IMG/VR virus record: IMGVR_UViG_3300036766_000416
Location: 114,610-178,609 of that record
Length of the DNA stretch: 64,000 nucleotides
Direction: 5' to 3' (one strand)
DNA from: a virus
A program made the position numbers and the translations under genes. Under the pieces are notes generated by a model. That model ran no database searches. It saw only the letters and a list, made by a program, of their open reading frames with translations, and was not told the origin of the DNA. Shown here in pieces: positions 22,328 to 57,181 of this stretch. Numbering within the stretch: position 1 is the first letter of the stretch; the number at the start of each line of letters is the position of its first letter.

Positions 22328-23851
22328 ATGTCCAAGCCTTTCTACACCAATGTCTCGGTGAGCGGAAACCACGTCTACTATCGTGGTATCGAAAACGGTC
22401 GTCGGGTGCAGCGGAAACTCTCCTATGCCCCGACGCTCTTTGTGCCTTCAAAGACCCCCAACACCACAGTCACCTGGAAAGACCTGCAAGGTAACCCTGT
22501 TGAACCAATGAAGTTCACGTCGATCTACGACGCCAAAGATTTCATCAAACGGTACAAGGACGTTAAAGGGTTCACGATCTACGGACAGCAAAACTTTGCG
22601 ACGGCTTTCATTGCAGAACAGCACCCCGAAGAAATTATGGAATGGGACCTTGCCCATGTGGTGACCGCGTACATCGATATCGAAGTCGATACTGAGTACC
22701 GAATGCCAGACGTCGATACCTGCCTGAATCCCATCACTGCTGTCACTATCAAATTTTCCAACGACCCCCAGTATCATGTGTTTGGCTGCAATCAGTATAC
22801 CCCTCACCGTCCCGATATCACCTGGTATCAGTGTGTCGATGAGTGTAACCTTGTAACCCGCTTTATGTCACTGTGGCGCGACAGAGCCCCTGATATCATT
22901 ACTGGGTGGAGTGTCAAGACCTTCGATATTCCCTACCTCGTCGGACGTATCATCATGTTGTTAGGTGAGGATCAAGCTCAGTGGTTGTCACCATGGGGGA
23001 AGGTGAACCGTCGTGAAGAAAAATCAAAGTTCGGGAAACCAATTACTACGTACCAACTTTTGGGTATTTCCACTCTTGACTATTTTCAACTCTACAACAA
23101 GTATGCCCCCAAGTCGAACCAAGAATCCTACAAGTTAGACTACATCGCTCATGTGGAATTGGGTGAACGCAAAGTCAACTATGAAGAACATGAAACACTT
23201 CACAACCTTTATCGAGACAATTTTCAAAAATTTATTGAGTATAACATTCATGACGTCGAGTTAGTGGAAATGCTCAATGCCAAGGGACGCCTTGTTGATA
23301 TGGCTGTCTTGCTTGCCTACGACAACAAGACGAACTATGAAGATGCGTTTTTTCAGGTACGTATGTGGGATGCGATCACCTACAATCACCTGAACCGAAA
23401 GTATATTGTGATACCTCCCAAAAAGGGAGAGGAAAAAGACGAAGCGTATGAGGGTGCGTATGTCAAGGACCCACAGACAGGTCTCTTTGAGTGGTTGATG
23501 AGTCTGGACTTGGATAGCTTGTACCCCCATTTGATTATGCAATATAACTTGTCACCCGAAACATTGATCGACCCCAAGAACTATACACCTGCTATGAAAG
23601 CGGTGTTGGAACAGGGGGTATCCGTAAACGCTTTGCTCCAGCAAAAGATCACCCTTGATGGTCTTGAAGGGTGTACGCTGACCCCCAATGGACAATTTTT
23701 TGATACCACTCGGGTTGGATTTCTTTCTGAGATTATGGATACCATGTATGCCGCTAGGGTACACTACAAAAATAAGCAACTCGAATTAGAACTAGAACTT
23801 GAGGAGATTAAGGGGGAAATGATGCGGCGAGGAACTAACTTTCCTAAATAG
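22328..23851 (+). CDS. 43A: DNA polymerase family B (gp43), N-terminal part: exonuclease and motif A
   Basis: 507 residues holding the 3'-5' exonuclease (Exo I YIDIEVD at about 115; Exo II GWSVKTFDIPYL, where the usual Asn is Ser; Exo III YNIHDVELVEML) and polymerase motif A (SLDLDSLYPHLI at about 391). The frame ends after a coiled region (LELELEEIKGEMMRRG), before motif B. The remaining polymerase lies beyond a GIY-YIG endonuclease gene. Split gp43 genes caused by homing endonucleases are known in some T4-like phages, so the parts may assemble. Confidence 0.9.
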   Translation: MSKPFYTNVSVSGNHVYYRGIENGRRVQRKLSYAPTLFVPSKTPNTTVTWKDLQGNPVEPMKFTSIYDAKDFIKRYKDVKGFTIYGQQNFATAFIAEQHPEEIMEWDLAHVVTAYIDIEVDTEYRMPDVDTCLNPITAVTIKFSNDPQYHVFGCNQYTPHRPDITWYQCVDECNLVTRFMSLWRDRAPDIITGWSVKTFDIPYLVGRIIMLLGEDQAQWLSPWGKVNRREEKSKFGKPITTYQLLGISTLDYFQLYNKYAPKSNQESYKLDYIAHVELGERKVNYEEHETLHNLYRDNFQKFIEYNIHDVELVEMLNAKGRLVDMAVLLAYDNKTNYEDAFFQVRMWDAITYNHLNRKYIVIPPKKGEEKDEAYEGAYVKDPQTGLFEWLMSLDLDSLYPHLIMQYNLSPETLIDPKNYTPAMKAVLEQGVSVNALLQQKITLDGLEGCTLTPNGQFFDTTRVGFLSEIMDTMYAARVHYKNKQLELELELEEIKGEMMRRGTNFPK

Positions 23852-23875
23852 TGCGTTGGGAAGGGAGAATTTCAT

Positions 23876-24580
23876 ATGTATTATTTGATTTATAAGACGG
23901 TTAACCGTCATAATGGAAAGTATTATATTGGTTCCCACGAGACCTGTAACCCATACGATTCTTATTTGGGGTCGGGTACAATACTTAGGCGTGCAATAAA
24001 GAAATATGGTAAGAGAAATTTTACAAAATTCATTATAGAGTTCTGCGACACTAGAGATATAATGTATGAGCGGGAAAGGGAATTGGTAGAAGTTGCCAGG
24101 AAAGATGAAAGAAGTTATAATGTAAATGTGGGAGGTTCTGGTGGATGGAATTTTGTGAATGAAAGTGGAACGAATCTAGGTTTGGGCAACCCCATGCATC
24201 AACAAAATGCAAAGAAAGCGGTGTCCGTTGCGATAAAATCTAATTGGGCAAAAAATCGCCCAAAGTATTTGAAAATTTCTTTGGATAATCTTTCTAAAGC
24301 CAACAATGTTGGCGTCATAAGAAGCGCATACACTCGTAAACTTATATCAGAAAACAATAGAAAAATGTGGAATAATCCTGTAATTCGAGAGAAAATTTTG
24401 TATGCTAATCGCACAAAATTTGAAATATTATCTCCTGGTGGAGAGATTTTTCATACTGACCAATTGGAAAAATTTTGCATCGACCGAGGCCTAACTTACG
24501 TATCAATATGGGACACTATTCGTCGTAAAAGGCCAGTGAAGAAAGGTCGATCAAAGGGGTGGATGTGCAAAAAGATTTAA
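23876..24580 (+). CDS. GIY-YIG homing endonuclease splitting DNA polymerase
   Basis: YYLIYKTVNRHNGKYYIGSHE is the GIY-YIG core, and the conserved catalytic Arg/Glu region follows. The C-terminus has the shared DNA-binding module (SPGGEIFHTDQLEKFCIDRGL...SKGWMC). It has its own GGGAG ribosome site. There is almost no flanking DNA left for an intron core on either side, so it appears free-standing. Markedly A+T-rich. Confidence 0.85.
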   Translation: MYYLIYKTVNRHNGKYYIGSHETCNPYDSYLGSGTILRRAIKKYGKRNFTKFIIEFCDTRDIMYERERELVEVARKDERSYNVNVGGSGGWNFVNESGTNLGLGNPMHQQNAKKAVSVAIKSNWAKNRPKYLKISLDNLSKANNVGVIRSAYTRKLISENNRKMWNNPVIREKILYANRTKFEILSPGGEIFHTDQLEKFCIDRGLTYVSIWDTIRRKRPVKKGRSKGWMCKKI

Positions 24581-24705
24581 CTTCTATATCAGATAAGGAA
24601 CTCCAGCGCCTTCGTAAGGAGAAAGAGTTTGAAATTTCACGCTATAGGAATCTCCAATTAGCGAAGAAAGTAGGACTCAACTCTGCTTACGGGGCGCTGG
24701 GTTAG
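24559..24705 (+). CDS. 43B: DNA polymerase (gp43) motif B fragment ending at TAG
   Basis: This frame encodes DLTSISDKELQRLRKEKEFE and then motif B, AKKVGLNSAYGALG, and stops at TAG immediately after the last Gly (GGT). Likely starts are GTG 24559 or GTG 24565, the latter with AAAGGGG upstream inside the endonuclease gene. The next polymerase residues continue in another frame after a second GGT. It can only contribute to a polymerase if the ribosome crosses the break. Confidence 0.6.
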   Translation: MDVQKDLTSISDKELQRLRKEKEFEISRYRNLQLAKKVGLNSAYGALG

Positions 24706-25730
24706 GTTCTGAATACTTCAGGTTCTTTGATATCCGTATTGCCGAGGGTGTCACACTAGCAGGTCAGTTGGGTATCCGCTGGATTGGAAACAGACTGAAT
24801 GGGTTCCTCAATACCCTTTTGAAAACTACCGAGGTGGACTATGTGATTGCCAGTGATACGGACTCGGTATACCTACATCTCGCACCGCTAGTGTGTCGTG
24901 TGTTTAAGGACACCACAGATACCCAAAAAGTCATTGACTTTCTTGATAAAGTGTTCAAGGAAAAAATCAAAGGTTTCATCGAAATGAACTATACGGAGCT
25001 TGCTAAATACACCCATGCGTATGCCCAGAAGATGCGTATGAAGCGTGAATCTCTGGCGAACAAAGGCATCTGGACAGCCAAGAAACGCTATATCCTGAAC
25101 GTGTGGGATTCAGAGGGTGTTCGGTATAAAAAACCCAAGATGGTCATTCACGGTCTGGAGGCGATCAAATCTTCGACACCTGGCGCCTGCCGAGAGAAGA
25201 TCAAAGAGGCATTGACGATCATCATGAATGGTACCGAAAATGAACTCATCGAACATATTGAAAAATTTCGTGTGTCATTCAAGACCCTCCCCATTGCTGA
25301 CATCGCATTCCCTCGTGGTATGAATGACCTAGAAAAATGTGACAGTGATGAATGCAATGATTCAACCAGTGCGTTGTCGTTCGATGATTCGTCAACAGCC
25401 GACCGACAAATTTATGAAAACCGTACACCCATCCACGTCAAGGGTGCGCTCGTGTATAATAGGTTTTTGAAACAAATGAAACTTGATACGCAATATGAAA
25501 CCCTGCGTTCGGGTGAAAAACTGAAATTTGTGTACCTCAAGGAACCCAATATTTTTCGAGAATCAGTTATGTCGTTCCTGGTGCGCGTACCCAAAGAATT
25601 CCACCTGGAAACCTGTGTGGACTATGACCTCATGTTCACCAAGGCCTTCCTTGATCCCCTCAATATTGTCTTGAAATGTATTGGGTGGTCAGCCGAGAAG
25701 AAATCTACACTAGATGATTTTTTTGGATAG
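24705..25730 (+). CDS. 43B: DNA polymerase family B (gp43), C-terminal part: motif C and thumb
   Basis: The open frame resumes with SEYFRFFDIRIAEGVTLAGQ, the direct continuation of motif B, and carries motif C (IASDTDSVYLHL) and thumb residues up to a C-terminal clamp-binding-like STLDDFFG. No ATG lies near its beginning (TTG 24768 is the first simple start and would lose conserved sequence). Separate translation is therefore unlikely to yield a full domain; joining to the previous fragment is expected. Confidence 0.8.
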   Translation, partial: GSEYFRFFDIRIAEGVTLAGQLGIRWIGNRLNGFLNTLLKTTEVDYVIASDTDSVYLHLAPLVCRVFKDTTDTQKVIDFLDKVFKEKIKGFIEMNYTELAKYTHAYAQKMRMKRESLANKGIWTAKKRYILNVWDSEGVRYKKPKMVIHGLEAIKSSTPGACREKIKEALTIIMNGTENELIEHIEKFRVSFKTLPIADIAFPRGMNDLEKCDSDECNDSTSALSFDDSSTADRQIYENRTPIHVKGALVYNRFLKQMKLDTQYETLRSGEKLKFVYLKEPNIFRESVMSFLVRVPKEFHLETCVDYDLMFTKAFLDPLNIVLKCIGWSAEKKSTLDDFFG

Positions 25731-41069: not shown

Positions 41070-41779
41070 TGGCTATTGAAGAAAATGATTTTTTGAAACG
41101 TCAGCAAACATTCTGGGGTGACATAGCCAAGAACTGGTCTCTCGAAAATAAAAATCCAATCGTAGGTTGGTGGAACGAGCACCAAGCTTTCGAAGAATAC
41201 GACACCGTGTTATTCAGGAATATTCCTCTCACTGGGCACGAAGTGGCCTTAGAGTATGGTTGTGGCCCCGCGAGAAACCTTGTGCGGTTCAAAGATCGTT
41301 TTGCGCGAATCGACGGGGTTGACATTGCTCCAGACTGTATCGAGAAAGCGAAAGTGTATCTGTCGTCCCTGGGGTTACCAGAACCCAATCTCTGGGCGAA
41401 CGACGGTCGCTCACTGCCGATGATTGCAGATGCACAGTATGACATCGTGTTCATGGTCATCAGTCACCAGCATATCACCAGTCGTTCGGTCAGACTCCAA
41501 CTCTATAAAGAATTCCTGCGGGTCCTGAAGCCCGGCGGCTACCTGTGCTTCCAAACCGGGTATGGTCCAGGTCACCCAAGGTCGGTTGACTACTTCACAG
41601 AGCACTACGACAACGAAGTAGACTTTGTGGACAAGGATGTTCGCGTTGAATCTATTGTTGTTATAAAAAAAGATTTGGAGGATTGTGGGTTCAAATGGTT
41701 GGACCATGTATTCACAAGAACCGTTCACGATGAACACCCATGTTGGACATGGATTCGTTGCCAAAAACCAAATGTATAG
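41069..41779 (+). CDS. SAM-dependent methyltransferase (class I), paralogue 2
   Basis: 236 residues. Motif I LEYGCGPARNLV, IDGVDIAPDCIEKAK and FLRVLKPGGYLCFQTGYG. Paralogue of the gene at 38511, so the cassette probably methylates two related positions or grew by duplication. ATG 41069 follows GGAGG. Confidence 0.75.
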   Translation: MAIEENDFLKRQQTFWGDIAKNWSLENKNPIVGWWNEHQAFEEYDTVLFRNIPLTGHEVALEYGCGPARNLVRFKDRFARIDGVDIAPDCIEKAKVYLSSLGLPEPNLWANDGRSLPMIADAQYDIVFMVISHQHITSRSVRLQLYKEFLRVLKPGGYLCFQTGYGPGHPRSVDYFTEHYDNEVDFVDKDVRVESIVVIKKDLEDCGFKWLDHVFTRTVHDEHPCWTWIRCQKPNV

Positions 41780-42368
41780 TATTTACCAAATAGTAAATAA
41801 TATCAATAATAAGAGGTATGTTGGGTTCACGTCACTAAGAAATCCGAGAACTAGATTTATCCAACATTCATCTAAATCCAAAAGAGGTTCCAAGTCTCCC
41901 ATACATTGTGCGATCAGGAAATATGGGAAAAATAATTTTCATTTTGAAATTCTAGAGCAAGGTGAAGATGGGGAGTATGGTAAAAATATTGTTGAACCTA
42001 TGTATATTGAATGGATGGTGCCTGAATATAATTTGACTAGGGGTGGTGAGGGTGCTTTTGGTTATAAGCACACAGAACAATCAAAGAGCAAGTTATCCCA
42101 AAAACTAAAAGGAAGGACGTTTAGTGACGACCATATAAGAAATTTAGTAATAGCTAGGTCTTTTAGAAAAGTCACTGAGAGTTGGAAAATCAACAACGGT
42201 GAGGGACACGCAAAAATATTTATTATAACTTCACCTACCGGGCAATCCTACACCATAAAAAACCTAAGAAAATTTTGTAGACAGAATAATCTCCATCAAG
42301 GTTATATGGTTTCTATCGCAAAGGGTAAAAACAAATCCTATAAGGGGTGGAGGTGTAAATATCCATGA
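41772..42368 (+). CDS. GIY-YIG homing endonuclease
   Basis: MYSIYQIVNNINNKRYVGFTS is the GIY-YIG core. Residues EDGEYGKNIVEPMYIEWM contain the catalytic Glu. A NUMOD3-like HTEQSKSKLSQKL and the shared C-terminal module (SPTGQSYTIKNLRKFCRQNN...YKGWRC) follow. It starts inside the last codons of the previous gene. Distinctly A+T-rich. Confidence 0.85.
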   Translation: MYSIYQIVNNINNKRYVGFTSLRNPRTRFIQHSSKSKRGSKSPIHCAIRKYGKNNFHFEILEQGEDGEYGKNIVEPMYIEWMVPEYNLTRGGEGAFGYKHTEQSKSKLSQKLKGRTFSDDHIRNLVIARSFRKVTESWKINNGEGHAKIFIITSPTGQSYTIKNLRKFCRQNNLHQGYMVSIAKGKNKSYKGWRCKYP

Positions 42369-42835
42369 TCCTTATTTCTCATAGAGGCAACCTCAACGGG
42401 GCGGCTCCTGACCTCGAAAACACCCTAGGGTACATCGACACCGCTATCAAGAGTGGTTTTGATGTCGAGATCGACGTCTGGGGCATCGAAGGTCGCCTGT
42501 GGCTCGGTCATGATGCAGGTGTCAAGTCCATCTCCACGGGGTACCTTCATGACAACTTTGATCGACTGTGGGTTCACTGCAAGAATATCGAGGCGATCAA
42601 CATGCTCCATGCCCATGCCCCATTGGTTCGACACTTTTGGCACCAAAAGGACGACTATACGATGGTCAGCAATGGGTTGGTGTGGTGCTTCCCAGGCAAG
42701 CAGCCACCAGCAAAGGGTGGCATTGTGGTCATGCCAGAACTCCTGATGACACTGGACGCGATTCGTTCGTATTGGAACCAGGGTGTCTATGGGATTTGCA
42801 GCGACTTTGTGGGGGTGCTCAAAGATCATAAATAG
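42365..42835 (+). CDS. Glycerophosphodiester phosphodiesterase-like protein
   Basis: 156 residues. ISHRGNLNG...LENTLGYID, VEIDVWGIEGRLWLGHD match the GDPD catalytic residues (HR, E-x-D, H) of the TIM-barrel N-terminal half, but the protein is about half normal length. It may act on a phosphodiester-linked glycan precursor, or bind it. Last gene of the glycan cassette. Confidence 0.65.
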   Translation: MILISHRGNLNGAAPDLENTLGYIDTAIKSGFDVEIDVWGIEGRLWLGHDAGVKSISTGYLHDNFDRLWVHCKNIEAINMLHAHAPLVRHFWHQKDDYTMVSNGLVWCFPGKQPPAKGGIVVMPELLMTLDAIRSYWNQGVYGICSDFVGVLKDHK

Positions 42836-42870
42836 CTCATCGACCCATAATCCACCTGCAGAGGGTGTTC

Positions 42871-43494
42871 ATGCTTGCCACAATCTACAAGGCTACCAAT
42901 ATACTTAACGGCAGACCCTACATAGGGTTCGATTCTTCTTGGCCAAACCGTCAAAAAGAACACCTTAGACAAGCCTTTCAACCAAAATCCTCCTCCTACT
43001 CCACTGCTTTCCACAAAGCTATCCGCGAATCGAAACCAGAATCATTTGTGTGGGAAGTTCTCTATACCTCTGACGATTTAGAGCACACTCTCAATGTCAT
43101 GGAGTCTCGATTTATCCAAGAACACAACTCCCATCACCTTTATGGACATGGATACAACATGACCTTGGGTGGCAATGGGTCTGTGATACATTCGTTGATT
43201 GAAATAGAGAAAATGTGCGAAGCACAGAAAAGAAGGTATACTGACCCAGAACAGAGGCGTCTGACAGGAGAGGCAATAAAGAAGTCCTATACCCCCGAAC
43301 TCATAAAAAAGAGGTCTCAGGGAACCAAAAAATCATATACTCCTGAGTTGAGGGAGATACGTCGCCAGCAAATGCTGTGTAAAAATCCAGCAAAAACTAT
43401 GTCTAGGATTGAGTGTCCTCATTGCCACCTGGTTGGTTCCAGCAATAATATGAAACGATACCACTTTGATAATTGTGAGGTGTCGCGTGGATAA
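42871..43494 (+). CDS. GIY-YIG homing endonuclease with C-terminal zinc finger
   Basis: ATIYKATNILNGRPYIGFDSSWPNRQ core; VMESRFIQEHNS holds the catalytic Glu; C-terminal CPHCHLVGSSNNMKRYHFDNC is the C2HC finger shared with an HNH enzyme. ATG 42871 follows GAGGG. Paralogue of the minus-strand gene at 8241. Confidence 0.85.
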   Translation: MLATIYKATNILNGRPYIGFDSSWPNRQKEHLRQAFQPKSSSYSTAFHKAIRESKPESFVWEVLYTSDDLEHTLNVMESRFIQEHNSHHLYGHGYNMTLGGNGSVIHSLIEIEKMCEAQKRRYTDPEQRRLTGEAIKKSYTPELIKKRSQGTKKSYTPELREIRRQQMLCKNPAKTMSRIECPHCHLVGSSNNMKRYHFDNCEVSRG

Positions 43495-46063
43495 ACTCAT
43501 CATACCCCACGGACTGAATTTGGATAGGGCGTCTCTACCTCAGGTGAAATCCACCGATGTTCCTGATTATCTTCGTTGGCTCTCACAGCACAAGCACTAC
43601 TCTTCTTTCCGAACTGAGTTGCCTGTTGCCTCATTGTTCTTCACGCAAGGCAACCTGAACAAATCAAAAATAAAACATTTCATGACGGATAAAAGAGACA
43701 ATCTCAGAAAACCTGTTATTGTTTCGGGAGATCATTATGTAATTGATGGACACCATAGAGTTACTGCTCTCCTGAACATGGACCCCACAGATACCATACC
43801 AGTTATCATGGTCCATGCAAAGGTCCTGGACCTCATTACTGCTACTAGAGAATATCCGCGCTCATTCACCAAGAACGTGGTCGAGTCATTCGCGTTGGTC
43901 ACTGAGGCCGCTGAGAAGCATACAGTTCTCACCTTTGGTCGCTTCAACCCACCCACAGCGGGGCACAAAAAGCTTGTCGATAAGGTCCACGAGGTGGCCA
44001 AGGAACACACGGCAGACCACCATGTGGTTCTCAGTCACACCCATGATGCTGAGAAGAACCCTCTCAGTCCAGCAGACAAACTCAAGCACGCCAAGCGGGC
44101 CTTTCCGGGCACCCATGTTTATGCGTCATCCACCAAGTACCCCACGATTTTCCACCATGCGGCCCATTTCCATAAAGCAGGTACCAAGCACCTCCATGTG
44201 GTCGTTGGGTCCGATAGGGTCAAGGAGTTCCATGACTCCCTTCATAAATATAATGGACACTTCGACAAGGAAGGCCACGGATACAAATTCAAGAGTATTA
44301 CAGTTCACTCGGCGGGTCACCGAGACCCTGATGCCAAAGGAGTAGAAGGTATGAGTGCGAGCAAGATGCGTGAACATGCCCATTCCGGCAACTTCAAGGA
44401 ATTTAGCAGAGGGGTCTCCAGTCATATGACACCTGAACATGCGAAAGAGTTATATCATGATGTTCGTAAAGGGCAGGGGCACCTGAAGGAATCATGGTAC
44501 AACACCAAAGTTGGACATGTTGAATTCAAAAAGGCAGATCCAAAGTGTAAACACTGCGGCGGCACAGGTTACACAGACAACTATAATGCCCATGGAAGTC
44601 CAGCGGCTCCTGGTTTTGGAACGCACAATTCTTCAGCGTGCTCATGTACCAGTAAATGGGTAGAAGCTAAGTTGAAAGAGGAAGTTGTAGAAATCCTCGC
44701 CGAGGGTGTTCACGACGCCGGTATCTTCAAGGCTGTGTTCATCACTGGTGGCACAGGGTCCGGCAAAGACTTCGTGATGAAGAAGTCTCTGCATGGTCAC
44801 GGTCTCACCGAGATCAACTCAGACACAGCCTTAGAGCACCTGATGCACAAAGGTGGACTGGACAAGAAGATGCCAGCCCACGAAAAAGAAAAACGTGACG
44901 TCACCAGAGAGCGCGCCAAGTCGATCACTGACCTCAGACAGCAGCTAGCGATTCATGGTCGCAATGGTCTCATCATCAACAGCACAGGTGCAAAGGCTGA
45001 CCAGATCAAGAAACTCAAGGGTGCCCTGGAGGACCTTGGGTACGACGCCAAGATGGTGTTTGTTGATGCTTCCGACAACGTGAGCAGAAACCGCAATGTC
45101 GAACGTGGCCAACGTGGCGGTCGCATGATTCCAGAGGATCTGCGAGCCAAGAAGTGGCGCGAGGCACAGGACAGTCGCGTGGTGTTCTCCAAGATGTTTG
45201 GACAGGAGCACTACCACGAATTTCAAAATGACGAGGACCTGCGGCACAACACTGATCCTGAGATTCATTCTCAAAAAACAGCGGAACTGGATGACCTGTT
45301 CAAGACCGTCAGAAAGTTCACACAGCAACCACCCAAGCACCCCGTGGCTCAGGAGTGGGTCCACAGGAACCTGGGTAAACTGGCCAAGCAGCCTATTGGC
45401 AATCGCGCTCAACAAAAGGCTATGACACCTCCATCCTCAGATTCGCAGGCGTCAGAGGAAGCGAGAAAACTTGGTTTAACCTACTACGGTTATGGAAAAT
45501 TCGGGAAGAATTCTCGTGTATCACATTTCAGTCTGCATGGCAAGCTCGTCGAGAAACAGAAAGCACTAAAACCCCCGGCATCACTAAAAGCAAATACCGC
45601 AAAGACACAGACAACCAAGAAGCCGCTGAACGAGGCATTCGAAGAACTTATCACGGAGGTCACTCATGGGAATGTACCTGATCTACAAACACCCAACGCT
45701 CTGGAAGATTTGGTGCTGGTACCAGGGAGTGAAGTTCTGGATGGAGAATTTGAACACCTCATCGAATCAAGTGATACCGACGGAATCCGTGACCTTAGAG
45801 ATTGTTACACCGAAACACAAGAAATTCCGCAAGAAAAAGTCACCTTTGATACTCTCAGGCGACGATTGGTCGTTTCAAGTGGCCAAGGGGCAGAAGAAAG
45901 AACGAAAACGCTCAGTGAAGGAGAAGCTACGCTAGAGCCGGGAACTGAGTCGGGAGCCATCTTGGGTACAGGAACCAATGAGGTCATCGACAAAACTAAT
46001 GGGGGCTTGGCGACCAGTGGTCCCAAGAAAACATTAAGGAAATTTAGGACAGATATAAAATAA
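43487..46063 (+). CDS. Multidomain protein: ParB-like, NMN-adenylyltransferase-like, zinc-finger and P-loop kinase domains
   Basis: 858 residues from GTG 43487 (GAGG upstream). In order: a ParB/Srx-like segment (VIDGHHRVTALL, about 86); a cytidylyltransferase/NMNAT-like domain starting TFGRFNPPTAGHKKL (about 149) with the later GMSASKMREH motif; a DnaJ-like CKHCGGTGYTD (about 355) with CSC; a P-loop kinase domain (FITGGTGSGKDFVMKK, about 418); and a Ser/Lys-rich tail. Several (L/I)xE sites lie between domains. It could be a processed virion polyprotein or an enzyme assembly; NAD-related metabolism is one hypothesis. Confidence 0.65.
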   Translation: MDKLIIPHGLNLDRASLPQVKSTDVPDYLRWLSQHKHYSSFRTELPVASLFFTQGNLNKSKIKHFMTDKRDNLRKPVIVSGDHYVIDGHHRVTALLNMDPTDTIPVIMVHAKVLDLITATREYPRSFTKNVVESFALVTEAAEKHTVLTFGRFNPPTAGHKKLVDKVHEVAKEHTADHHVVLSHTHDAEKNPLSPADKLKHAKRAFPGTHVYASSTKYPTIFHHAAHFHKAGTKHLHVVVGSDRVKEFHDSLHKYNGHFDKEGHGYKFKSITVHSAGHRDPDAKGVEGMSASKMREHAHSGNFKEFSRGVSSHMTPEHAKELYHDVRKGQGHLKESWYNTKVGHVEFKKADPKCKHCGGTGYTDNYNAHGSPAAPGFGTHNSSACSCTSKWVEAKLKEEVVEILAEGVHDAGIFKAVFITGGTGSGKDFVMKKSLHGHGLTEINSDTALEHLMHKGGLDKKMPAHEKEKRDVTRERAKSITDLRQQLAIHGRNGLIINSTGAKADQIKKLKGALEDLGYDAKMVFVDASDNVSRNRNVERGQRGGRMIPEDLRAKKWREAQDSRVVFSKMFGQEHYHEFQNDEDLRHNTDPEIHSQKTAELDDLFKTVRKFTQQPPKHPVAQEWVHRNLGKLAKQPIGNRAQQKAMTPPSSDSQASEEARKLGLTYYGYGKFGKNSRVSHFSLHGKLVEKQKALKPPASLKANTAKTQTTKKPLNEAFEELITEVTHGNVPDLQTPNALEDLVLVPGSEVLDGEFEHLIESSDTDGIRDLRDCYTETQEIPQEKVTFDTLRRRLVVSSGQGAEERTKTLSEGEATLEPGTESGAILGTGTNEVIDKTNGGLATSGPKKTLRKFRTDIK

Positions 46064-46527
46064 TGTCGAATTATCGTAAGATTTATGAGCAATACTATGG
46101 GGTCAAGATTCCCAAAGGTCACCATATCCACCACAAGGATATGGATCATGGGAATGACGATCCTTTGAATTTGGAAGCTTTGCATCCAGACGAGCACGCA
46201 AAAAAGCATGGGTTTAGTTCTAATTTCATTATGGCGCAATCGACCGCTGTTGAGCGGGCTGCCATAGGACGAAAGAGATTGGAATGGAGAACTAAGAAAT
46301 CCAAGGATATGATGGGCAACGTGAACGGAAAGGGAAACAAGGGTAAGAAACTTACCGACGAAACAAAAGCTAAAATAACAATAGCAATGATAGGTCGAAT
46401 TATGACATCTGAACATAAAGCAAGACTTTCGGCTTCGAAGATGGGAAATACAAATACTCTAGGATTTAAGCACACGGCTCAGTCTATAGCTAACATGACA
46501 CTTGCGGCAAGGAATAGGAAAAAGTAA
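46063..46527 (+). CDS. HNH homing endonuclease
   Basis: YGVKIPKGHHIHHKDMDHGNDDPLNLEALHPDEHAKKHG is a compact HNH core with clear His/Asn/His residues. NUMOD3-like TDETKAKITIAMIGR and SEHKARLSASKMGN follow. The ATG shares bases with the previous stop (TAATG). Of a different subfamily from the four KHHIIP enzymes. Confidence 0.85.
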   Translation: MSNYRKIYEQYYGVKIPKGHHIHHKDMDHGNDDPLNLEALHPDEHAKKHGFSSNFIMAQSTAVERAAIGRKRLEWRTKKSKDMMGNVNGKGNKGKKLTDETKAKITIAMIGRIMTSEHKARLSASKMGNTNTLGFKHTAQSIANMTLAARNRKK

Positions 46528-46528
46528 C

Positions 46529-48484
46529 ATGCGCTCACTTAAAACCCATATAACCGAACTAGCAGACCCAAAATTTGTGAAACCTATCAAGACCGAGTAT
46601 CACTATACCGGGAAAATAAACGGTAAAACCTTTGTGGTTCCTCACTCCTACAACTATGAAATGAACATTGGTGGCAAAATCAATCCGATGCATCATCATA
46701 TCGTGACGTCGTTGAACCATACGATCCACAACAATCCAACACTCACACCAGAAGAGCATGCAAGGGTCCACGCGCATATCGCCTTACATCACGGTGAACG
46801 AGAGTCGGCAAAGTTGGAGGAGGGTATGGGGTCTCATAAGGTACCCGTGTATCACTCAGACCGCAAGACACTCCTGGGGCACGTAAAATCCTCAGCAACC
46901 TCTGTGGGTGCCGCCAAGGTCGCTAAGTCGAAGTCCACTTCGTTTGAGCGAGTGAACGGAAAGTATGCGTGGGTGTCTAGTGACCCTGCAGTAAAGAAGT
47001 TGGAAGAGCATCGGTACCTGGGTTTCGACCACAAAGGTGGACAGCACGATATTCAAGCGACCTCAACCTGTGACGCGCACCTCAAGGTGGCTGCGAAAGC
47101 CAACACACCCAAGAGTCAAGACCACAAGATCCATGTGCATTTGCATACACTCGATACACCAGAAGGACCAAAAGAGGTCCGACATGACACCATGTTTGAG
47201 GAAACAGAGGAATCCATGATACAAGAAGGTCGACCAATCCGCGGTGACGTATTCCATCACCACCAGACATTGATTGCTAAGAAAACACTCAAGATGAGCG
47301 ATGCCGGCGCACGTATCATGGGTGGACAAACGAAAGAAGAAGCCCGAGCGCACCTCAAGAAAATGGGCTGGACACAGAAACAAATCCACCAGCACGAACA
47401 CGAACTGAACGAACGTACCCTCACAGGTGCCGAGGACACCAAAAAGGAAGAAATTGTCCATAGCATGAAAAAGAAACTCCAAGGTTTCAAAGCACGCTAT
47501 GGTGACAAAGCCAAGAGTGTGATGTATGCAACTGCAACCAAACAGGCCAAGAGATTGGCAGAAGAGGAAGTTATGAACAATGAAGAAACACTGACCGAAG
47601 GTCTCCATGCCTACAAGGTCATCCACAAGGGCAGAGAGATTGACAAAAGAAAACATGCCGGTAAATTATTTCGAGAGGCGATCAAGTACGGAGATGAAGT
47701 AACCATCTCCCACAACTACGGAATAGACAGCGGCAAACAAGGCACCGTGCTTCATCCGAATAAAGTTCGCACCAATGAGCGCGGGGTACCAACGGATGTT
47801 CCAGGCGCCTATAAGCCTGTCGACCATAAGAAAGAGCATGTTGTGAAACTTCACAGTGGATCATATGCTGTTGTACCAAAAGGATCACTTACAAAACTAA
47901 AAGAGGACTCTATGTTGAAAGAATCCGAACAACTCGACGAACTCAGCAAGGGTACGCTCAAGAGCTATATCAAGAAGGCAAGTCCATCGTTGGGATACCA
48001 TTCTTATGTGGCTGGTTCAGATACTCGCAGATCAGAAACAGCGAAGAAGGCGGCCCGTAGCTTCTTTGCCAAGCAAGGAGAAGAATCCGACAAAATCTCT
48101 AAGCGCCGCGAAAAGGGTATCCAACAGGCCGCGAGCAAGCTGGAGGAATCCTCAAGCGCACTAAACGAATTTTCAAATACACCCAAGAAACCCGGTTCCT
48201 TGGAATTGTGGCATAATGAGAAGGTGAAACAAGAGAAGGAAATGTCTGAGAGAATGAAGAGGGAAAAGTCCAAAACACTCAACACCATCCGAGAGGTACT
48301 CTCAGAATCCTTTACCCGCAAGCACTTCAAGGCGATTGCTGAGGTCATCAAGTCTCATACAGACGCCAACACACGACAGAAACTTGCTGACGCCCACGCG
48401 AACGCTTTTACAAAGGATAATCCGAGATTTTCACACGAAAAATTTCATGCGGCCGCCGGAACAACATATACTAAGGCAAAATAA
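46529..48484 (+). CDS. Modular virion-like protein with repeated (L/I)xE sites
   Basis: 651 residues from ATG 46529. The start MRSLKTHITE resembles T4 capsid-targeting peptides. Then come modules seen in T4-like phage proteins: KARYGDKAKSVMYATATKQAKRLAEEE, EQLDELSKGTLKSYIKKA, a KOW/SH3-like DEVTISHNYGIDSGKQGTVLHP and a terminal HFKAIAEVIKSH...HEKFHAAAG. Modules are separated by ESMIQE, LTE, LKE and LSE sequences. I infer a polyprotein cut by the prohead protease. No enzyme motif recognised. Confidence 0.55.
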   Translation: MRSLKTHITELADPKFVKPIKTEYHYTGKINGKTFVVPHSYNYEMNIGGKINPMHHHIVTSLNHTIHNNPTLTPEEHARVHAHIALHHGERESAKLEEGMGSHKVPVYHSDRKTLLGHVKSSATSVGAAKVAKSKSTSFERVNGKYAWVSSDPAVKKLEEHRYLGFDHKGGQHDIQATSTCDAHLKVAAKANTPKSQDHKIHVHLHTLDTPEGPKEVRHDTMFEETEESMIQEGRPIRGDVFHHHQTLIAKKTLKMSDAGARIMGGQTKEEARAHLKKMGWTQKQIHQHEHELNERTLTGAEDTKKEEIVHSMKKKLQGFKARYGDKAKSVMYATATKQAKRLAEEEVMNNEETLTEGLHAYKVIHKGREIDKRKHAGKLFREAIKYGDEVTISHNYGIDSGKQGTVLHPNKVRTNERGVPTDVPGAYKPVDHKKEHVVKLHSGSYAVVPKGSLTKLKEDSMLKESEQLDELSKGTLKSYIKKASPSLGYHSYVAGSDTRRSETAKKAARSFFAKQGEESDKISKRREKGIQQAASKLEESSSALNEFSNTPKKPGSLELWHNEKVKQEKEMSERMKREKSKTLNTIREVLSESFTRKHFKAIAEVIKSHTDANTRQKLADAHANAFTKDNPRFSHEKFHAAAGTTYTKAK

Positions 48485-49050
48485 TGGAAGCGTTTGTTTA
48501 TTGCTGGACAGACTTCTTGACCAATAAACTCTATGTCGGAGTTCATAAAGGAACTCCAGAGGATGGGTACATCTGTTCAAGTAAGATAATGTTGGAAGAA
48601 TACAATAAGAGACCGCAAGATTTTTCTAGGCAAATTATTGCTTCTGGTTTATACAAAGAAATGTATGTTCTGGAGACAGCAATATTGAAGGCAGCTAAAG
48701 CAGACAGGGACCCGGGGTACTATAACCTACACCTAAATAATGGCAAATTCAGCAATGAAGGTTTCAAACACTCGGAACAAACTAAAAGTGAATTGAGCAA
48801 AATAGCTTTAGGAAGGATTCCTTGGAATAAAGGAAAAACGGGGCTTCAAGTGGCTTGGAATAAGGGAAAAAAGAGGGATACGCCATGGAATGTGGGAGTT
48901 CCAAAGAATGAATTTATTAAATTAAAAATCAGTATGAAATTGAAGGGGAGAATTCCTTGGAACAAGGGAAAGACTGGACTGCAAGTGGCCTGGAATAAGG
49001 GAAAGATCGGATTACAAGTAGCTTGGAATAAGGGAAAAAGGAAAACATAA
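48484..49050 (+). CDS. GIY-YIG homing endonuclease with WNKG repeats
   Basis: FVYCWTDFLTNKLYVGVHKG core; a catalytic-Glu region LETAILKAAKADRDPGYYN; then six copies of a WNKGK-type unit (NUMOD3). Paralogue of the genes at 55558 and 57182. ATG shares bases with the preceding stop. The repeated C-terminus probably varies in DNA contact length. Confidence 0.85.
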   Translation: MEAFVYCWTDFLTNKLYVGVHKGTPEDGYICSSKIMLEEYNKRPQDFSRQIIASGLYKEMYVLETAILKAAKADRDPGYYNLHLNNGKFSNEGFKHSEQTKSELSKIALGRIPWNKGKTGLQVAWNKGKKRDTPWNVGVPKNEFIKLKISMKLKGRIPWNKGKTGLQVAWNKGKIGLQVAWNKGKRKT

Positions 49051-49051
49051 C

Positions 49052-50395
49052 ATGCCAAAGAAATTCAAGGAACTCACAGCTAAACTCAGCGAATCGAAGT
49101 ATGGGGATGCAATGTCATCGCGGTTACCTAGTCACCTGGATGATCCTCGTGACAAAGGAACTGTGAAACCATCGGCTGCTTACCTCAAAGCAAAAAAGAA
49201 ACGTGCATTGCATTTTGCTAATAAGGGTGACATTCAGGTGAAAAAATCTGTCTATGAGTCCTATCGTGACCAAGCACTGGAAGAATCTGTGGGCTCAGTG
49301 CCCAATGCAGCATTCAATGAGAGTGGTCCAGAAACCTACAAAGTCGGAGATAAGGTTCATGTTGGTGTGGGCACTAAGGGTGGAGCAGGCCATGTGGGAA
49401 TAATCCATAAGATGAATTCAGATGAGGTGCATGTTAAGATTGGTGTTGATAAGTATGGGGATCGAATCATTCGTGCTCCCCATCGTCTTGTAAGTCTCCA
49501 TGAGGACACTTCGGGTGGGGGCTACAAAGTCGGAGACCGTGTGGTACCTAAAATCGGACCACACAAAGGTGAGATGCATCGGGTAATCCATGTTCACGAT
49601 ACGGGTCACTTGAATATCACTCCAGAAAATAAGCAACACAAGAATCGCTATCACCTTGGAGCAGCCAAGGCGCACCCAAATGATGTGACACGCGCTGAGA
49701 AGTTGGAAGAATCCTTCAAAACTTGGGTTCATACAGGTCATCCATTTCACAAAGCGGTTGAGCACGCCAAGGATAGAGGACATAGAATCACCTATGGCAC
49801 TCAGTCAAAAAAGTGGCACGTCATTGGACCCAATGACCGAGACTATCACACCTCGTTTGCCCTGGACCCTGATGAAGCGCATCGACAGGGAGAAGCTACG
49901 TCATTGTTGAGTTCGACGAGTGCGCGAAGATTGGAAGAATCCAAGCACCCAGAAGGTATGACCAACTTTGGTAAAAAAATAAAACTAAAAGATTATTTTG
50001 ATCCTTTCAAGCATAAAAAAGGTGTTTCAGATAAGCAGGAGCCGCGCACAGGTCTCGAAAGCAAGAAATACCGAAACCTTGCTGAGAATCCTATCGTTCG
50101 TGAAGCCTTTGAGGCTGCGAAAGCAAAAAAAAAGGATAGCAACCTGAAGCCTAATGACTTCCAGGAACCCAAGGATATGAAGTCGCCTGGGCAGCAGGAC
50201 CCACAGCAAGCGGACCTCCAAGCGAAGCCCGCACCGTTTGGTGGACAGCAACCACAAGGTGCCCCAGAGAAACAGAGCAACGCACCGAAGCCAGAAAAGA
50301 AAACTGACAAGCTGACCGTCAAGGGACCTGGGGTTGAGGATGCCTTTCAAAAGGAACCAACTGTTGCAGGTTTGACAACACTTGTTAAGGCCTAA
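49052..50395 (+). CDS. Modular virion-like protein with two KOW/SH3-like repeats
   Basis: 447 residues. Two KVGDKV/KVGDRV-initiated beta repeats (about 96-150 and 155-210) look like KOW/SH3 domains; KTWVHTGHPFHKAVEHAKDRGHRITYG follows; the C-terminal ~120 residues are Lys/Pro/Gln-rich. LSE, LEE and LHE segments mark module borders. No catalytic motif. Role in the virion is inferred from neighbours. Confidence 0.5.
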   Translation: MPKKFKELTAKLSESKYGDAMSSRLPSHLDDPRDKGTVKPSAAYLKAKKKRALHFANKGDIQVKKSVYESYRDQALEESVGSVPNAAFNESGPETYKVGDKVHVGVGTKGGAGHVGIIHKMNSDEVHVKIGVDKYGDRIIRAPHRLVSLHEDTSGGGYKVGDRVVPKIGPHKGEMHRVIHVHDTGHLNITPENKQHKNRYHLGAAKAHPNDVTRAEKLEESFKTWVHTGHPFHKAVEHAKDRGHRITYGTQSKKWHVIGPNDRDYHTSFALDPDEAHRQGEATSLLSSTSARRLEESKHPEGMTNFGKKIKLKDYFDPFKHKKGVSDKQEPRTGLESKKYRNLAENPIVREAFEAAKAKKKDSNLKPNDFQEPKDMKSPGQQDPQQADLQAKPAPFGGQQPQGAPEKQSNAPKPEKKTDKLTVKGPGVEDAFQKEPTVAGLTTLVKA

Positions 50396-50413
50396 GGAAA
50401 CATAAATAGCATT

Positions 50414-51025
50414 ATGGTGTATGGAATAATTTATCGTTATACAAATAAGGTCAATGGCAAGGTCTACATAGGGCAGACCAAGAACCCTAGTAGGAGAAAG
50501 GCTGACCATAAGAGTTGTTGTTTGAATGGAAGGGGTAGTTACCTCCATACCTCTATGAGGAAGCATGGATTTGATAATTTTCTTTATGAAGAGATTGATA
50601 CGGCAATTGATAAACAGTCTCTCGATCTTCTTGAGAAACATTATATTCAAATACACGACTCAAATACACCTGAACGAGGATATAATTTGACCGTGGGTGG
50701 CCCGGGCATCATGGAGGGTCGCAAGCACACAATGCTTTCTAAGCAAAGGATGAGCGTCACTAAAAAAGGTATACCTAACTTTAGATTGAGGAATCACACC
50801 AGAACCTCATCGCATTGCTCTAACATATCATTATCAAAGAAGGGGTCCATTCCTACTGCTACAATCAAACGTTGGGAAGTGACAACACCAACGGGGGAAG
50901 TGTTGCGACCGTTTAATTTGGCACAATACGCTAGAGATAATAAATTGAATCGCGGGCATTTAGCGAATAGTGGCCGAATACATCGAACGCATAAGGGGTA
51001 TCGTGCGATAGAGTTAACATCATGA
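50414..51025 (+). CDS. GIY-YIG homing endonuclease
   Basis: GIIYRYTNKVNGKVYIGQTKNPSRRK is a textbook core including the Arg; LLEKHYIQIHDS holds the Glu; NUMOD3-like MEGRKHTMLSKQRMSVT and the shared C-terminal module (TPTGEVLRPFNLAQYARDN) follow. A CATAAATA sequence lies just upstream. The end overlaps the next gene (ATGA). Confidence 0.87.
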   Translation: MVYGIIYRYTNKVNGKVYIGQTKNPSRRKADHKSCCLNGRGSYLHTSMRKHGFDNFLYEEIDTAIDKQSLDLLEKHYIQIHDSNTPERGYNLTVGGPGIMEGRKHTMLSKQRMSVTKKGIPNFRLRNHTRTSSHCSNISLSKKGSIPTATIKRWEVTTPTGEVLRPFNLAQYARDNKLNRGHLANSGRIHRTHKGYRAIELTS

Positions 51026-51528
51026 TACGTGACCCAGGGTCGATTATTTATTCGGATTCCGATGGAGTTCTTTGTGACTTTATGAAGGGAGCAGAAAAGG
51101 TATTAGGACACCCATTTGACAATGCTCATCGTAAAGAAAATGGTGACCTTTTGAATGCTCATGTGGGGTTTTGGGAAACCCTACCTCCAATGCCTGACTG
51201 GAAAGTTTTGTGGGGGTTTATTGAAAAGTTTCACCCTCATATTTTGACTGCTGTACCCTCGGGACCGTGGGGTTTTGATTTCCATAAGGTTGAACGAGGT
51301 AAGCGCGAATGGTACCGCAGACACATACCTTCGTTACCCCAGAATCGAATTCATGTGGTGTATCGAGAGCAAAAATCAGATTATGCAGTAAATAATAAAA
51401 TGCTGGGCATATTGATTGACGATAACGCAAAAAATGTGCAGGAATTCACTAACGCCGGGGGTATTGGTGTTCTGCATCACAATGCGAAATCAACCATTAT
51501 ATTACTGAAAAATTTGGGATATCACTAA
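51022..51528 (+). CDS. HAD-type 5'(3')-deoxyribonucleotidase-like
   Basis: 168 residues. IIYSDSDGVLCDF supplies the DxDG nucleophile, ILTAVPSG motif II and LGILIDDNAKNVQEF motif IV of HAD phosphatases. Closest in layout to dNT-1-type nucleotidases. It could trim dNMPs or dephosphorylate a modified nucleotide. Confidence 0.7.
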   Translation: MIRDPGSIIYSDSDGVLCDFMKGAEKVLGHPFDNAHRKENGDLLNAHVGFWETLPPMPDWKVLWGFIEKFHPHILTAVPSGPWGFDFHKVERGKREWYRRHIPSLPQNRIHVVYREQKSDYAVNNKMLGILIDDNAKNVQEFTNAGGIGVLHHNAKSTIILLKNLGYH

Positions 51529-51545
51529 CATAAAGGAGAAGTCAC

Positions 51546-52088
51546 ATGAGTCTATGGGGATCAAGAGATTTAGCAAACAACGCACCTAAATTCACGGTGT
51601 TCAGTGGCATCGGGGCTGTAGCGAATGGTGTCTCTGGCAACGGACAGGATTTGTTCGCCAACACCACAGTTGGTGTCTGGCACGCCAACCTGACATTAGG
51701 TGTCGATGGTCTCACAGCCGCCGAGAAAGCGAATACCGCAGGTCCAGCACACGCGGGTTGGGTCAATCGCAAAGAGGGCACTGGTGGTGTTGTATCCATC
51801 GTGCTCACGAACGCGGGTTCAGGGTACACAGGTGGTAACGGATTCATCACCTTCGCGGGTGGTGGAAATGGTAGCGGAGCGAACGCTTCCTACACCGTCA
51901 ATGCTGCGAACAGCAACAGCGTCTCATCGGTGACCTTGGTCAACGGTGGGTTCAACTACAACGCCGCAGCGATCACCGCAAACACCGTTGCAACCTATAC
52001 GGTTCGAGCGACCTTTACGGTCACCGTAGGTGGACGAGCCGGACGCAATCAGTATGAGACCCTGGTGGCTGGTGGAAGCATCGTCTAA
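51546..52088 (+). CDS. Virion structural protein (Gly/Asn-rich)
   Basis: 180 residues, starting MSLWGSRDLANNAPKF as in structural proteins of T4-like cyanophages. The body is Gly/Ala/Asn/Thr-rich with beta repeats such as VSIVLTNAGSGYTGGNGFI, typical of head-decoration or fibre-like proteins. Strong AAAGGAG ribosome site, as expected for an abundant product. Confidence 0.7.
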   Translation: MSLWGSRDLANNAPKFTVFSGIGAVANGVSGNGQDLFANTTVGVWHANLTLGVDGLTAAEKANTAGPAHAGWVNRKEGTGGVVSIVLTNAGSGYTGGNGFITFAGGGNGSGANASYTVNAANSNSVSSVTLVNGGFNYNAAAITANTVATYTVRATFTVTVGGRAGRNQYETLVAGGSIV

Positions 52089-52089
52089 G

Positions 52090-52491
52090 ATGCACTCGTT
52101 TGAGGAGTACCTAAGTGAATGCCTGGATGTCGAGGTCGTCGGAGAACCCGGCGCCCTTGAGCTGCATGATCCCGAACATCGGGATGCGCTGAACTTTGCC
52201 TTGCTCGATATCACCGATGCATCACACGATACGCGATTGGTCTATATCGAGATTGCATCAACATTGAGTGGTGCTGGGTACCAGATACCCTCAGTGTCGG
52301 AGTTCCCTGAGTTGTTAGAGTCCGATGGAGAAATCATCATAGGTCTCATTGGACCTGATGGAGACCCAGACCCCTGTGCGCTGTATTTTGCGTTTTCAGA
52401 TCAAGAGATTTTTGCTGAAATAGTCACCGATGAAGAATTGGATGACATAGTGAGTGATACTGATGTACACGATTTACCAAATAAAGAATAA
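52090..52491 (+). CDS. Acidic hypothetical protein with capsid-targeting-like start
   Basis: 133 residues, strongly acidic. The start MHSFEEYLSE resembles the T4 capsid-targeting peptide pattern ending in (L/I)xE. No other motif. Its last nine codons lie inside the following endonuclease gene (29-bp overlap). Confidence 0.5.
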   Translation: MHSFEEYLSECLDVEVVGEPGALELHDPEHRDALNFALLDITDASHDTRLVYIEIASTLSGAGYQIPSVSEFPELLESDGEIIIGLIGPDGDPDPCALYFAFSDQEIFAEIVTDEELDDIVSDTDVHDLPNKE

Positions 52492-52990
52492 ATTGAATGG
52501 TAAAATATACCGAGGATTTACTACTCAGAGACCTCAAAAACGTTGGATAGCACACAAATCACAGGCTAGGACAGGTAAATATAAACATATCCATCTTTAT
52601 TGCGCTCTGAGAAAATATGGTCCTGAGAATTTTTTGTTTGAAATTTTAGAACAAGGTCATGATCATAATTATGGATTAGAAGTACGAGAACCCTTTCTTA
52701 TTGCTGAAATAGATCCACATGTCAGTTATAACATGACCCCGGGCGGAGAAGGTAATCGTAGCTATGTTTGTAGGGCTGAAACTGGTCGAAAAATTAGTGA
52801 AGCTTTGAGAGGGAAGAAGAAACCACCTCGGTCTTTTGAACATGCTTTCAGAATTAGTAAAGCCTTAACGGGGAAAGAATCTCCCCATAAAGGCAAGACT
52901 CAGAGAATCGTTCGATGCCCGCATTGTGGTGTAGAAGGCGGATATTGTGTCATGGGTCGACACCATTTTTATAATTGTAAAATGATTTAA
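52463..52990 (+). CDS. GIY-YIG homing endonuclease with C-terminal zinc finger
   Basis: MYTIYQIKNKLNGKIYRGFTTQ core; EVREPFLIAEIDP region with the Glu; NUMOD3-like TGRKISEALRGKK; C-terminal CPHCGVEGGYCVMGRHHFYNC finger. Paralogue of 41772 and 53778. A+T-rich. Start inside the preceding gene. Confidence 0.85.
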   Translation: MYTIYQIKNKLNGKIYRGFTTQRPQKRWIAHKSQARTGKYKHIHLYCALRKYGPENFLFEILEQGHDHNYGLEVREPFLIAEIDPHVSYNMTPGGEGNRSYVCRAETGRKISEALRGKKKPPRSFEHAFRISKALTGKESPHKGKTQRIVRCPHCGVEGGYCVMGRHHFYNCKMI

Positions 52991-53003
52991 GAAGAGTCAT
53001 AAT

Positions 53004-53402
53004 ATGCTAGGTTTTGAGAATCTTACAGCAGAAAATGTTTTCGTATATGCTGTAAAAGCTTATGAAAAAAGCAATTATCTTCAAAGCGAACTAAAACAAG
53101 ACCTCAAGTATTTCATCTATGTCAGGCGCCTCCTGCGTCGGTATCATCAGACGGGTGAATTGAAAGAACGACTGACACTCAATCACCTGGTCATTCTGTA
53201 TAATCTCTTTGGGGTACCAGCGGCAACAAGGCTTTTGTATTATTATGTGCGACCAGAAGATTACTCGGTGCTCAAAACATTTCTCTTGTTCCTGGGGTAC
53301 CAACCAGACCGCATTGAAGGTATCCATGGTCTCACAATCCACTCATCGGACCTGTCCGTTGAACAACCTGTAGCAGATGCGCTGAGAAAGATACGCCCAT
53401 GA
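53004..53402 (+). CDS. Conserved hypothetical protein of T4-like phages
   Basis: 132 residues, mostly helical (AENVFVYAVKAYEKSNYLQSEL...FIYVRRLLRRYHQTGELKERL) with LNHLVILYNLFGVPAATRLLYYY. I recognise it as resembling a short conserved protein of T4-like marine phages with no known function. Cotranslated with the next gene. Confidence 0.6.
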   Translation: MLGFENLTAENVFVYAVKAYEKSNYLQSELKQDLKYFIYVRRLLRRYHQTGELKERLTLNHLVILYNLFGVPAATRLLYYYVRPEDYSVLKTFLLFLGYQPDRIEGIHGLTIHSSDLSVEQPVADALRKIRP

Positions 53403-53776
53403 TCGTCACCTCTATCGCCAAGCAAGCGTACCATGGTGCTGTAGAGAAAAAAGGTGCCCTTGCGACCATCGCCACCATCGTGGCCATTGTCGCCGCTCTT
53501 ATAGGAACCTATGTGACTCTCTCGAATAACTTGACGACCGCTAAGGCTGCTCGTGATGAGCAGATGAAGGGGTACGCAGTCCAGATTGGTGTGCTACACA
53601 CAGAGGTCAATGGACTCAAAGAGGACATCGAGAATATGCGTAAGTGGAATAAATCGATGTCAGAGCGCCTCAATGCCCAAGAGAAATCGGAGCTAGCCCG
53701 ACAATCGGATTCCCTAGAAAACCGAATCAATCGGCTGGAAGATGCAGCCATGAGCGCACAGAGAAAGAAAAAGTAA
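53399..53776 (+). CDS. Membrane-anchored coiled-coil protein (spanin-like candidate)
   Basis: 125 residues. One transmembrane segment at about 18-42 (ALATIATIVAIVAALIGTYVTL) followed by a long charged coiled coil to the C-terminus (VNGLKEDIENMRKWNKSMSERLN). The topology suits an inner-membrane spanin (Rz-like) or a related lysis factor. It lies within a region with holin-like genes. Confidence 0.5.
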   Translation: MIVTSIAKQAYHGAVEKKGALATIATIVAIVAALIGTYVTLSNNLTTAKAARDEQMKGYAVQIGVLHTEVNGLKEDIENMRKWNKSMSERLNAQEKSELARQSDSLENRINRLEDAAMSAQRKKK

Positions 53777-53777
53777 C

Positions 53778-55552: not shown

Positions 55553-55557
55553 TCATA

Positions 55558-56187: not shown

Positions 56188-56188
56188 A

Positions 56189-56731: not shown

Positions 56732-56732
56732 C

Positions 56733-57140: not shown

Positions 57141-57143
57141 TCC

Positions 57144-57172
57144 TTGCTTTTTGCGGTGGTTTGCTGTATAAT
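57144..57172 (+). promoter_or_regulatory. sigma70-type promoter (TTGCTT / 17 nt / TATAAT)
   Basis: A weaker -35 with a perfect -10 at 57167-57172. Nine bases separate it from the endonuclease ATG at 57182, so almost no leader. It may drive the endonuclease, primase, thyX and RNR. Confidence 0.6.
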
Positions 57173-57181
57173 AGTTACATT

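Follow-up and report, generated by a model that had tools for sequence, protein, structure and literature searches.

The window analyzed here, a stretch of 64,000 nucleotides from a virus of bacteria (IMG/VR record IMGVR_UViG_3300036766_000416), raises the question of how a DNA polymerase can be made from a gene that carries a stop codon at catalytic motif B. The preliminary description of the locus had reported a frame break at this point, and the sequence indeed reads ...GGG GCG CTG GGT (24700-24702) TAG (24703-24705) GT TCT GAA TAC TTC..., with a second GGT at 24705-24707 and SEYFRFFD running from 24708. The break thus stands as described; the accompanying view of a single polymerase frame does not. 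The sole PolB gene of the window is observed to be split already upstream, at the tip of the fingers, by a GIY-YIG (Seg-like) homing endonuclease gene (HEG), and the interrupted frame is therefore that of the C-terminal cistron, which begins at GTG 24565. The HEG, the gene split and the mobility discussed below are absent from that earlier account. The features of the locus are collected in Table 1.

Table 1. Features of the split polymerase gene and of the motif B insert, in window coordinates.
Feature	Position	Strand	Basis
gp43A, N-terminal half of split T4-type PolB DNA polymerase, 507 aa	22328..23851	+	ORF
GIY-YIG (Seg-like) homing endonuclease gene, 234 aa, at the polymerase fingers tip	23876..24580	+	
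Shine-Dalgarno-like AAAGGGG, within the HEG, 5' of the gp43B start	24553..24559	+	
gp43B first segment, 46 codons, from GTG to the putative take-off Gly codon via motif B (KKVGLNSAYGALG)	24565..24702	+	
Putative take-off codon GGT (Gly, codon 46)	24700..24702	+	
5-nt insert TAGGT (equivalent to GGTTA at 24700-24704): in-frame TAG, then GT	24703..24707	+	
Putative landing codon GGT (Gly), homologous to the recipient's native Gly codon	24705..24707	+	
gp43B remainder, SEYFRFFD..., motif C DTDS, to the polymerase stop, 340 aa	24708..25730	+	

The gp43A half contains the exonuclease domain and motif A (DLDSLYP), matches the Pfam families DNA_pol_B_exo1 and DNA_pol_B, and is ~82% identical to its uninterrupted relatives over 501 aa; it stops shortly past the end of the fingers helix. 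The HEG product matches Pfam GIY-YIG with E=0.0012, below the curated cut-off, and is ~39% identical over 174 aa to an Aeromonas phage Aes012 protein designated 'Seg-like homing endonuclease GIY-YIG family'. With the YIG, E67 and N82 conserved in its alignments, a GIY-YIG catalytic domain can be taken as present at the level of sequence, the cutting itself being inferred. GIY-YIG-like genes abound in this genome: HEG-profile matches number 18 in the virus record (window 41685-57844 and the rest of G000), many of them between structural genes.

The gp43B start overlaps the end of the HEG by 16 nt, and AAAAGG or AAAGGG occurs at the place equivalent to its Shine-Dalgarno-like element in nearly all relatives. 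The 46 codons of the first segment encode MQKDLTSISDKELQRLRKEKEFEISRYRNLQLAKKVGLNSAYGALG and are followed by TAG, the insert lying ~120 nt downstream of the HEG. The remainder of gp43B aligns from its residue 3 to residue 574 of RB69 gp43 (E ~1e-43), which places the insert directly 3' of motif B, is ~84% identical to relatives, and is seen to be under purifying selection (dN/dS 0.05-0.07). The gene order gp43A, GIY-YIG HEG, gp43B at the fingers tip, as in seg43 and the split gene 43 of T4-like phages, is met. In the nearest uninterrupted relatives (L002-L005), HEG and insert are both absent and the sequence is GAMGSEYFRFFD; these relatives are 82-91% identical in amino acids downstream and read GAMG-SEYFRFFD with no extra bases, which confirms the earlier proposal that removal of the five bases restores motif B. 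Another intact polymerase elsewhere in the genome, named in the preliminary description as something that would refute its reading, did not turn up, since no second PolB was found in the 178.6-kb virus record.

The insert is observed to recur at the same codon in many other genomes. Database scans yielded 25 distinct site sequences with inserts there, from tens of metagenomes, which we group into about 20 cassettes; the loci are IMG/VR contigs, several of them redundant. The inserts are 4 nt (2 sites), 5 nt (11), 6 nt (5), 7 nt (1), 9 nt (3), 10 nt (1) and 11 nt (2) long and cover all three frame classes. An in-frame stop (TAG, TAA or TGA) stands directly after the take-off codon in 25/25 site sequences, and the flanking codons agree in their first two bases (GG/GG, CT/CT or GC/GC) in 23/25; they are identical in 12 sites, and the third base differs in 11 of the 23 pairs (e.g., GGT to GGA). 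Gly/Gly pairs form the majority. Leu/Leu pairs are found in five sites (L041, L120, L126, L294, L125), with examples such as CTT-TAG-CTC, CTT-TGA-CTT, CTT-TAGC-CTT and CTT-TAGTGC-CTT, and the native Gly (or Cys) follows the landing Leu, so that the product would again be of native length. The single Ala/Ala version reads GCG-TGACCCGG-GCT, with GCG as the take-off and GCT as the landing codon (L134:4001-4950). The take-off position is codon 46 for the window and most other cassettes, with a range of 44-47 that covers nearly all of them; L126, with codon 51, is outside it. Conservation at the protein level is back at the first codon after the insert, and long stretches downstream of it show dN/dS values of ~0.05-0.13 (Nei-Gojobori; dS is saturated in several pairs). 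The 4-nt class, GGT TAGC AAC (L025:4821-4850, L037, L130), has no synonymous landing codon; either a +1 shift, with a Ser added, or a landing on AGC despite the mismatch would be needed.

Two of the scans used patterns conditioned on the insert, and the frequency of the insert among HEG-split genes is for this reason not unbiased. The 6-nt pattern led to a divergent phage (L006/L007) with the same arrangement, GGA-TAA-GGA, with identities of 46% for the polymerase and 38% for the HEG. The 5-nt pattern led to 12 contigs, all of them polymerase genes with GGT-TAG at this codon, preceded by a HEG in every contig that extends far enough to include it (L015 breaks off near the HEG). Many more inserts came from HEG profile scans, which are blind to the insert. 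The hits inspected in the phage collection included no isolated phage with the bypass version, nothing in that collection matched the C-terminal half of the L031 HEG, and no relatives of the HEG were found in cellular genomes.

The association of the insert with the HEG is likewise observed. Inserts number 0 among 117 distinct HEG-less polymerase sites, a set that derives mostly from a scan whose pattern ended before the insert position, and the HEG-split genes comprise 24 site sequences with a short insert, 2 with a group I intron and 14 with neither. All inserts but one are thus in HEG-split genes. The exception, L015, has a HEG C-terminal tail (...KGKLKGWTCKKI) at the contig end, ~170 nt upstream of motif B, and possibly represents either the remains of a HEG that decayed while the bypass persisted or an artefact of the contig end. 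The upstream sequence of L015 gives no match to the HEG of its twin cassette L113.

The group I introns occupy this same position, which is what one would expect if it were a homing site. In Aeromonas phage Aes120 (L022) the intron match spans 2726-2961, and we read the exon junction as GCT T^TA GGT AAC; in the isolated coliphage Escherichia phage G2285 (L021, 3989-5221), gene 43 contains both the HEG and a group I intron, whose exon borders were left unset by the depositors; this phage would be a handy relative for laboratory work. The HEG of the Ala cassette, L134, groups with the HEGs of both intron-bearing phages, and a replacement between intron and bypass is possible there. In the HEG-split polymerases without an insert the motif is mostly altered to GS.G (including GSLG and GSVG), GACG or GSCG (L034, L038, L049-L051, L116-L124, L128, L129). 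This is perhaps self-protection by substitution, which we regard as only a lead; the HEG-less set was required to read GA.G, so the contrast in altered motifs is biased. Intron, bypass insert and altered site may be viewed as alternative solutions at one homing site. In Synechococcus phage ACG-2014f (L023:1085-4101), the polymerase is split in the same fingers-tip region by two small ORFs, with no HEG and no motif B insert; a HEG has possibly been lost.

The transfer of the cassette, with a breakpoint at the insert, is apparent from pairs of related loci. In L031/L032, L113/L015, L025/L037 and L029/L024, the last 60 nt up to the insert are 97-100% identical, compared to 67-92% in the first 60 nt past it and mostly 45-85% beyond; upstream, the identity stays high over the gp43B start. 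The whole HEG is 83-100% identical in L031/L032 and L025/L037, and only 65-83% in L029/L024. The identity of L113 and L015 extends through GGTTAGG, directly after which TAATGCT stands against AAACGAA. Such a breakpoint indicates that the HEG and the insert home together, that the cassette ends at the insert, and that the landing Gly codon, third base included, was already present in the recipient, from which the GGT/GGA mismatches follow. For the window itself, the segment 5' of the insert has a pN of ~0.2 to L002/L003, compared to 0.016 for L002 vs L003, as expected if this segment came with the cassette. The insert types also cluster on the HEG and polymerase trees (16 and 17 changes, with shuffled means of 24.6 and 24.5), deep support in both trees being weak. 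On these comparative grounds the mobility of the cassette appears well supported.

We consider it quite probable that the locus is a mobile cassette of HEG and bypass, in which an ultra-short stop-hop would shield the cassette from its own nuclease. The HEG splits gene 43 into gp43A and gp43B, and gp43B would be translated from a ribosome-binding site of its own, located within the HEG. Forty-six codons on, at GGT-TAG, the peptidyl-tRNA-Gly would release GGT, skip TA and re-pair with the GGT located 5 nt downstream, and translation would resume at SEYFRFFD to yield an unaltered motif B. The insert, situated at the presumed target of the nuclease, would likely break the HEG's own recognition or cut site, so that the cassette would escape its own nuclease while converting polymerase genes that lack the HEG, and for such protection the intron at this site is indirect support; the hop would render the insert harmless to the essential gene, and gp43A and gp43B would assemble. 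The hop, the cutting by the HEG at this site, the blocking of cutting by the insert and the assembly of the two polypeptides are all inferred. Insert lengths in all frame classes, three stop codons, synonymous flanking codons and the immediate return of protein conservation all have to be accounted for. With a hop to the synonymous codon, the native spacing returns for inserts of 5, 6, 7, 9, 10 and 11 nt, and this one mechanism could cover every class except the 4-nt one. In its general form, the proposal that natural 5-11-nt stop-hops act as self-immunity tags in a family of HEG cassettes of viral polymerase genes, landing on the Gly, Leu or Ala codon of the recipients, is in our judgment likely. 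Landing on a codon of the recipient would allow one cassette to enter many polymerases with enzyme function kept. The narrow range of take-off positions may reflect a nascent-peptide requirement or a fixed distance from the split to motif B.

Some observations speak against a hop. One tRNA may read both codons poorly where the third bases differ, as in GGT to GGA, the 4-nt class looks more like a +1 shift, and the native downstream Gly or Leu codon partly accounts for the codon match with no need to invoke the tRNA. RNA folding revealed no conserved structure, and single-sequence folds were unremarkable (z values of -0.8, -0.7, -2.1, -1.3 and +1.1). To our knowledge, synthetic stop-hops are inefficient. 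All the evidence is comparative, without translation data, so that the ultra-short hop suggested in the preliminary description by analogy to T4 gene 60 is the best fit to these data and not proven by them.

Error, pseudogene, -1 slip, readthrough and a third subunit all fit worse. Conventional recoding, which we regard as unlikely, would invoke a -1 shift where the insert is 5 nt long (adding Leu-Gly), a +1 shift where it is 4 nt and readthrough where it is 6 or 9 nt. Inserts of 5, 7 and 11 nt do leave the target frame open, and GGT TAGC AAC does suit a +1 shift, but a separate event would be needed per length class and two or more residues would be added to an invariant catalytic motif. The -1 slip onto GGG, raised earlier as an alternative for the window, is possible only with a G before the codon. 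It was rejected, because in several lineages the tRNA-Gly would have to re-pair with the incompatible TGG or AGG; in L040, moreover, a TAA directly 5' of the landing GGT closes the target frame, which excludes frameshifting there, and readthrough cannot work in L040 either. With all three stop codons in use, no single suppressor serves, and a reassignment of TAG was discarded on this ground and because the 5-nt insert changes the frame. A phage-encoded suppressor or Gly tRNA was also discarded, as the 25 tRNA genes clustered at L103:12967-19951 include none for Gly and no suppressor anticodon is reported. Alternatively, the stop could be real, a 46-aa peptide and a separately initiated C-terminal polypeptide making up a three-piece polymerase. 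The parts of a split gp43 are known to function together in a complex (PMC2988022) and TTG 24768 is an in-frame start; yet SEYFRFFDIRIAEGVTLAGQ, the stretch that separates the insert from any start codon, shows conservation at the protein level, start codons are not enriched, being no nearer than in HEG-less genes (a median of 60 nt to the first in both), and mostly there is no upstream start in that frame, so that we find this possibility very unlikely.

Removal at the RNA level, the insert being a relic of a group I intron at the same site or excised like one, could appeal to the introns that occupy this site in other phages and to the grouping of the L134 HEG with theirs. We judge it highly improbable, as a ribozyme is too large for 4-11 nt and the Rfam search detected no group I intron in 23300-25000 of the window; an intron spanning the HEG was rejected on the same search and for want of non-coding space. 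We know of no enzyme that excises so few nucleotides. A damaged gene or an assembly artefact deserves hardly any credence: a stop codon placed in an essential catalytic motif would at first seem lethal, but the same inserts are present in assemblies from many separate metagenomes. The recurrence of a stop-bearing insert at one codon in divergent phages is due neither to chance nor to sequencing error, so the wrong sequence that the earlier account had left as a possible cause of the break can be dismissed, and damage or artefact is already refuted as a general explanation. A pseudogene is ruled out by the low dN/dS downstream and by the absence of another PolB.

The mobile cassette with a stop-hop, if true, would provide the first natural family of ultra-short ribosome hops, represented before by artificial constructs and one 50-base case in T4, and programmed bypassing would then be a strategy to which selfish genes resort repeatedly, no longer a curiosity of T4. 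In bacteria and phages, bypassing has so far rested essentially on T4 gene 60, with its 50-nt gap and elaborate signals; the ~20 natural cassettes (4-11 nt, three stops, Gly/Leu/Ala) constitute a ready-made comparative experiment on the requirements of a hop. With intron, altered site and bypass insert all present at one codon of one gene, the cassettes are also a direct test of the proposal that bypass sequences originated as a substitute for introns in HEG self-protection. No report of a bypass in a polymerase gene was found in the literature searched, outside of which remained Bonocora 2011, Lang 2014 and Petrov 2010. A 2010 review regarded the gene 60 bypass as a feature of T4 alone and raised the question of further cases in T4-related phages, and according to a 2016 review (PMC5009743) no natural in-frame stop-hop was known, shorter-distance counterparts of the bypass having long been presumed to exist.

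The synthetic +5 and +6 stop-hops (Weiss et al. 1987, as cited in PMC5009743) are similar to the present inserts in that matched codons flank a stop and the hop spans a few nucleotides, and differ in being laboratory constructs rather than natural. The byps of Magnusiomyces capitatus mitochondria are alike as mobile-looking inserts neutralised in translation by bypassing (PMC5009743); unlike the present ones, they are mitochondrial and genome-wide (81 inserts), with no adjacent HEG at a homing site. Gene 43 of Aeromonas phages 25 and Aes120 (gp43A, seg43 HEG, gp43B) has the same split, HEG position and insertion site, which holds a 276-nt self-splicing group I intron in these phages and a 5-nt stop-bearing insert in the window; of this seg43-type feature, a group I intron in gp43B, there is none in the window, and it is present in L021 and L022. 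The phage 25 HEG is said to have been shown to cut intron-free 43B DNA. The intron was predicted in a review to use the free-standing HEG.

The T4 mobA/gene 60 system and the present cassettes share a HEG inserted in, and splitting, an essential replication gene, as well as a linked and mobile combination of HEG and bypass, and in gene 60, as in the window, the stop comes right after Gly codon 46 and the gap ends at a matching Gly codon. T4 mobA/gene 60 was reportedly described as a mobile cassette by Bonocora et al. in 2011. The gene and nuclease differ, being a polymerase with a GIY-YIG HEG here and a topoisomerase with an HNH HEG in T4, and the gap is 4-11 nt compared to 50 nt in gene 60. 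The take-off stem-loop of gene 60 is a feature that is not met, as there is no room for it in the short gap and no consistent fold is seen. Finally, the gene 60 bypass belongs to a single lineage, whereas the present cassettes are distributed over many lineages and include Leu and Ala versions.
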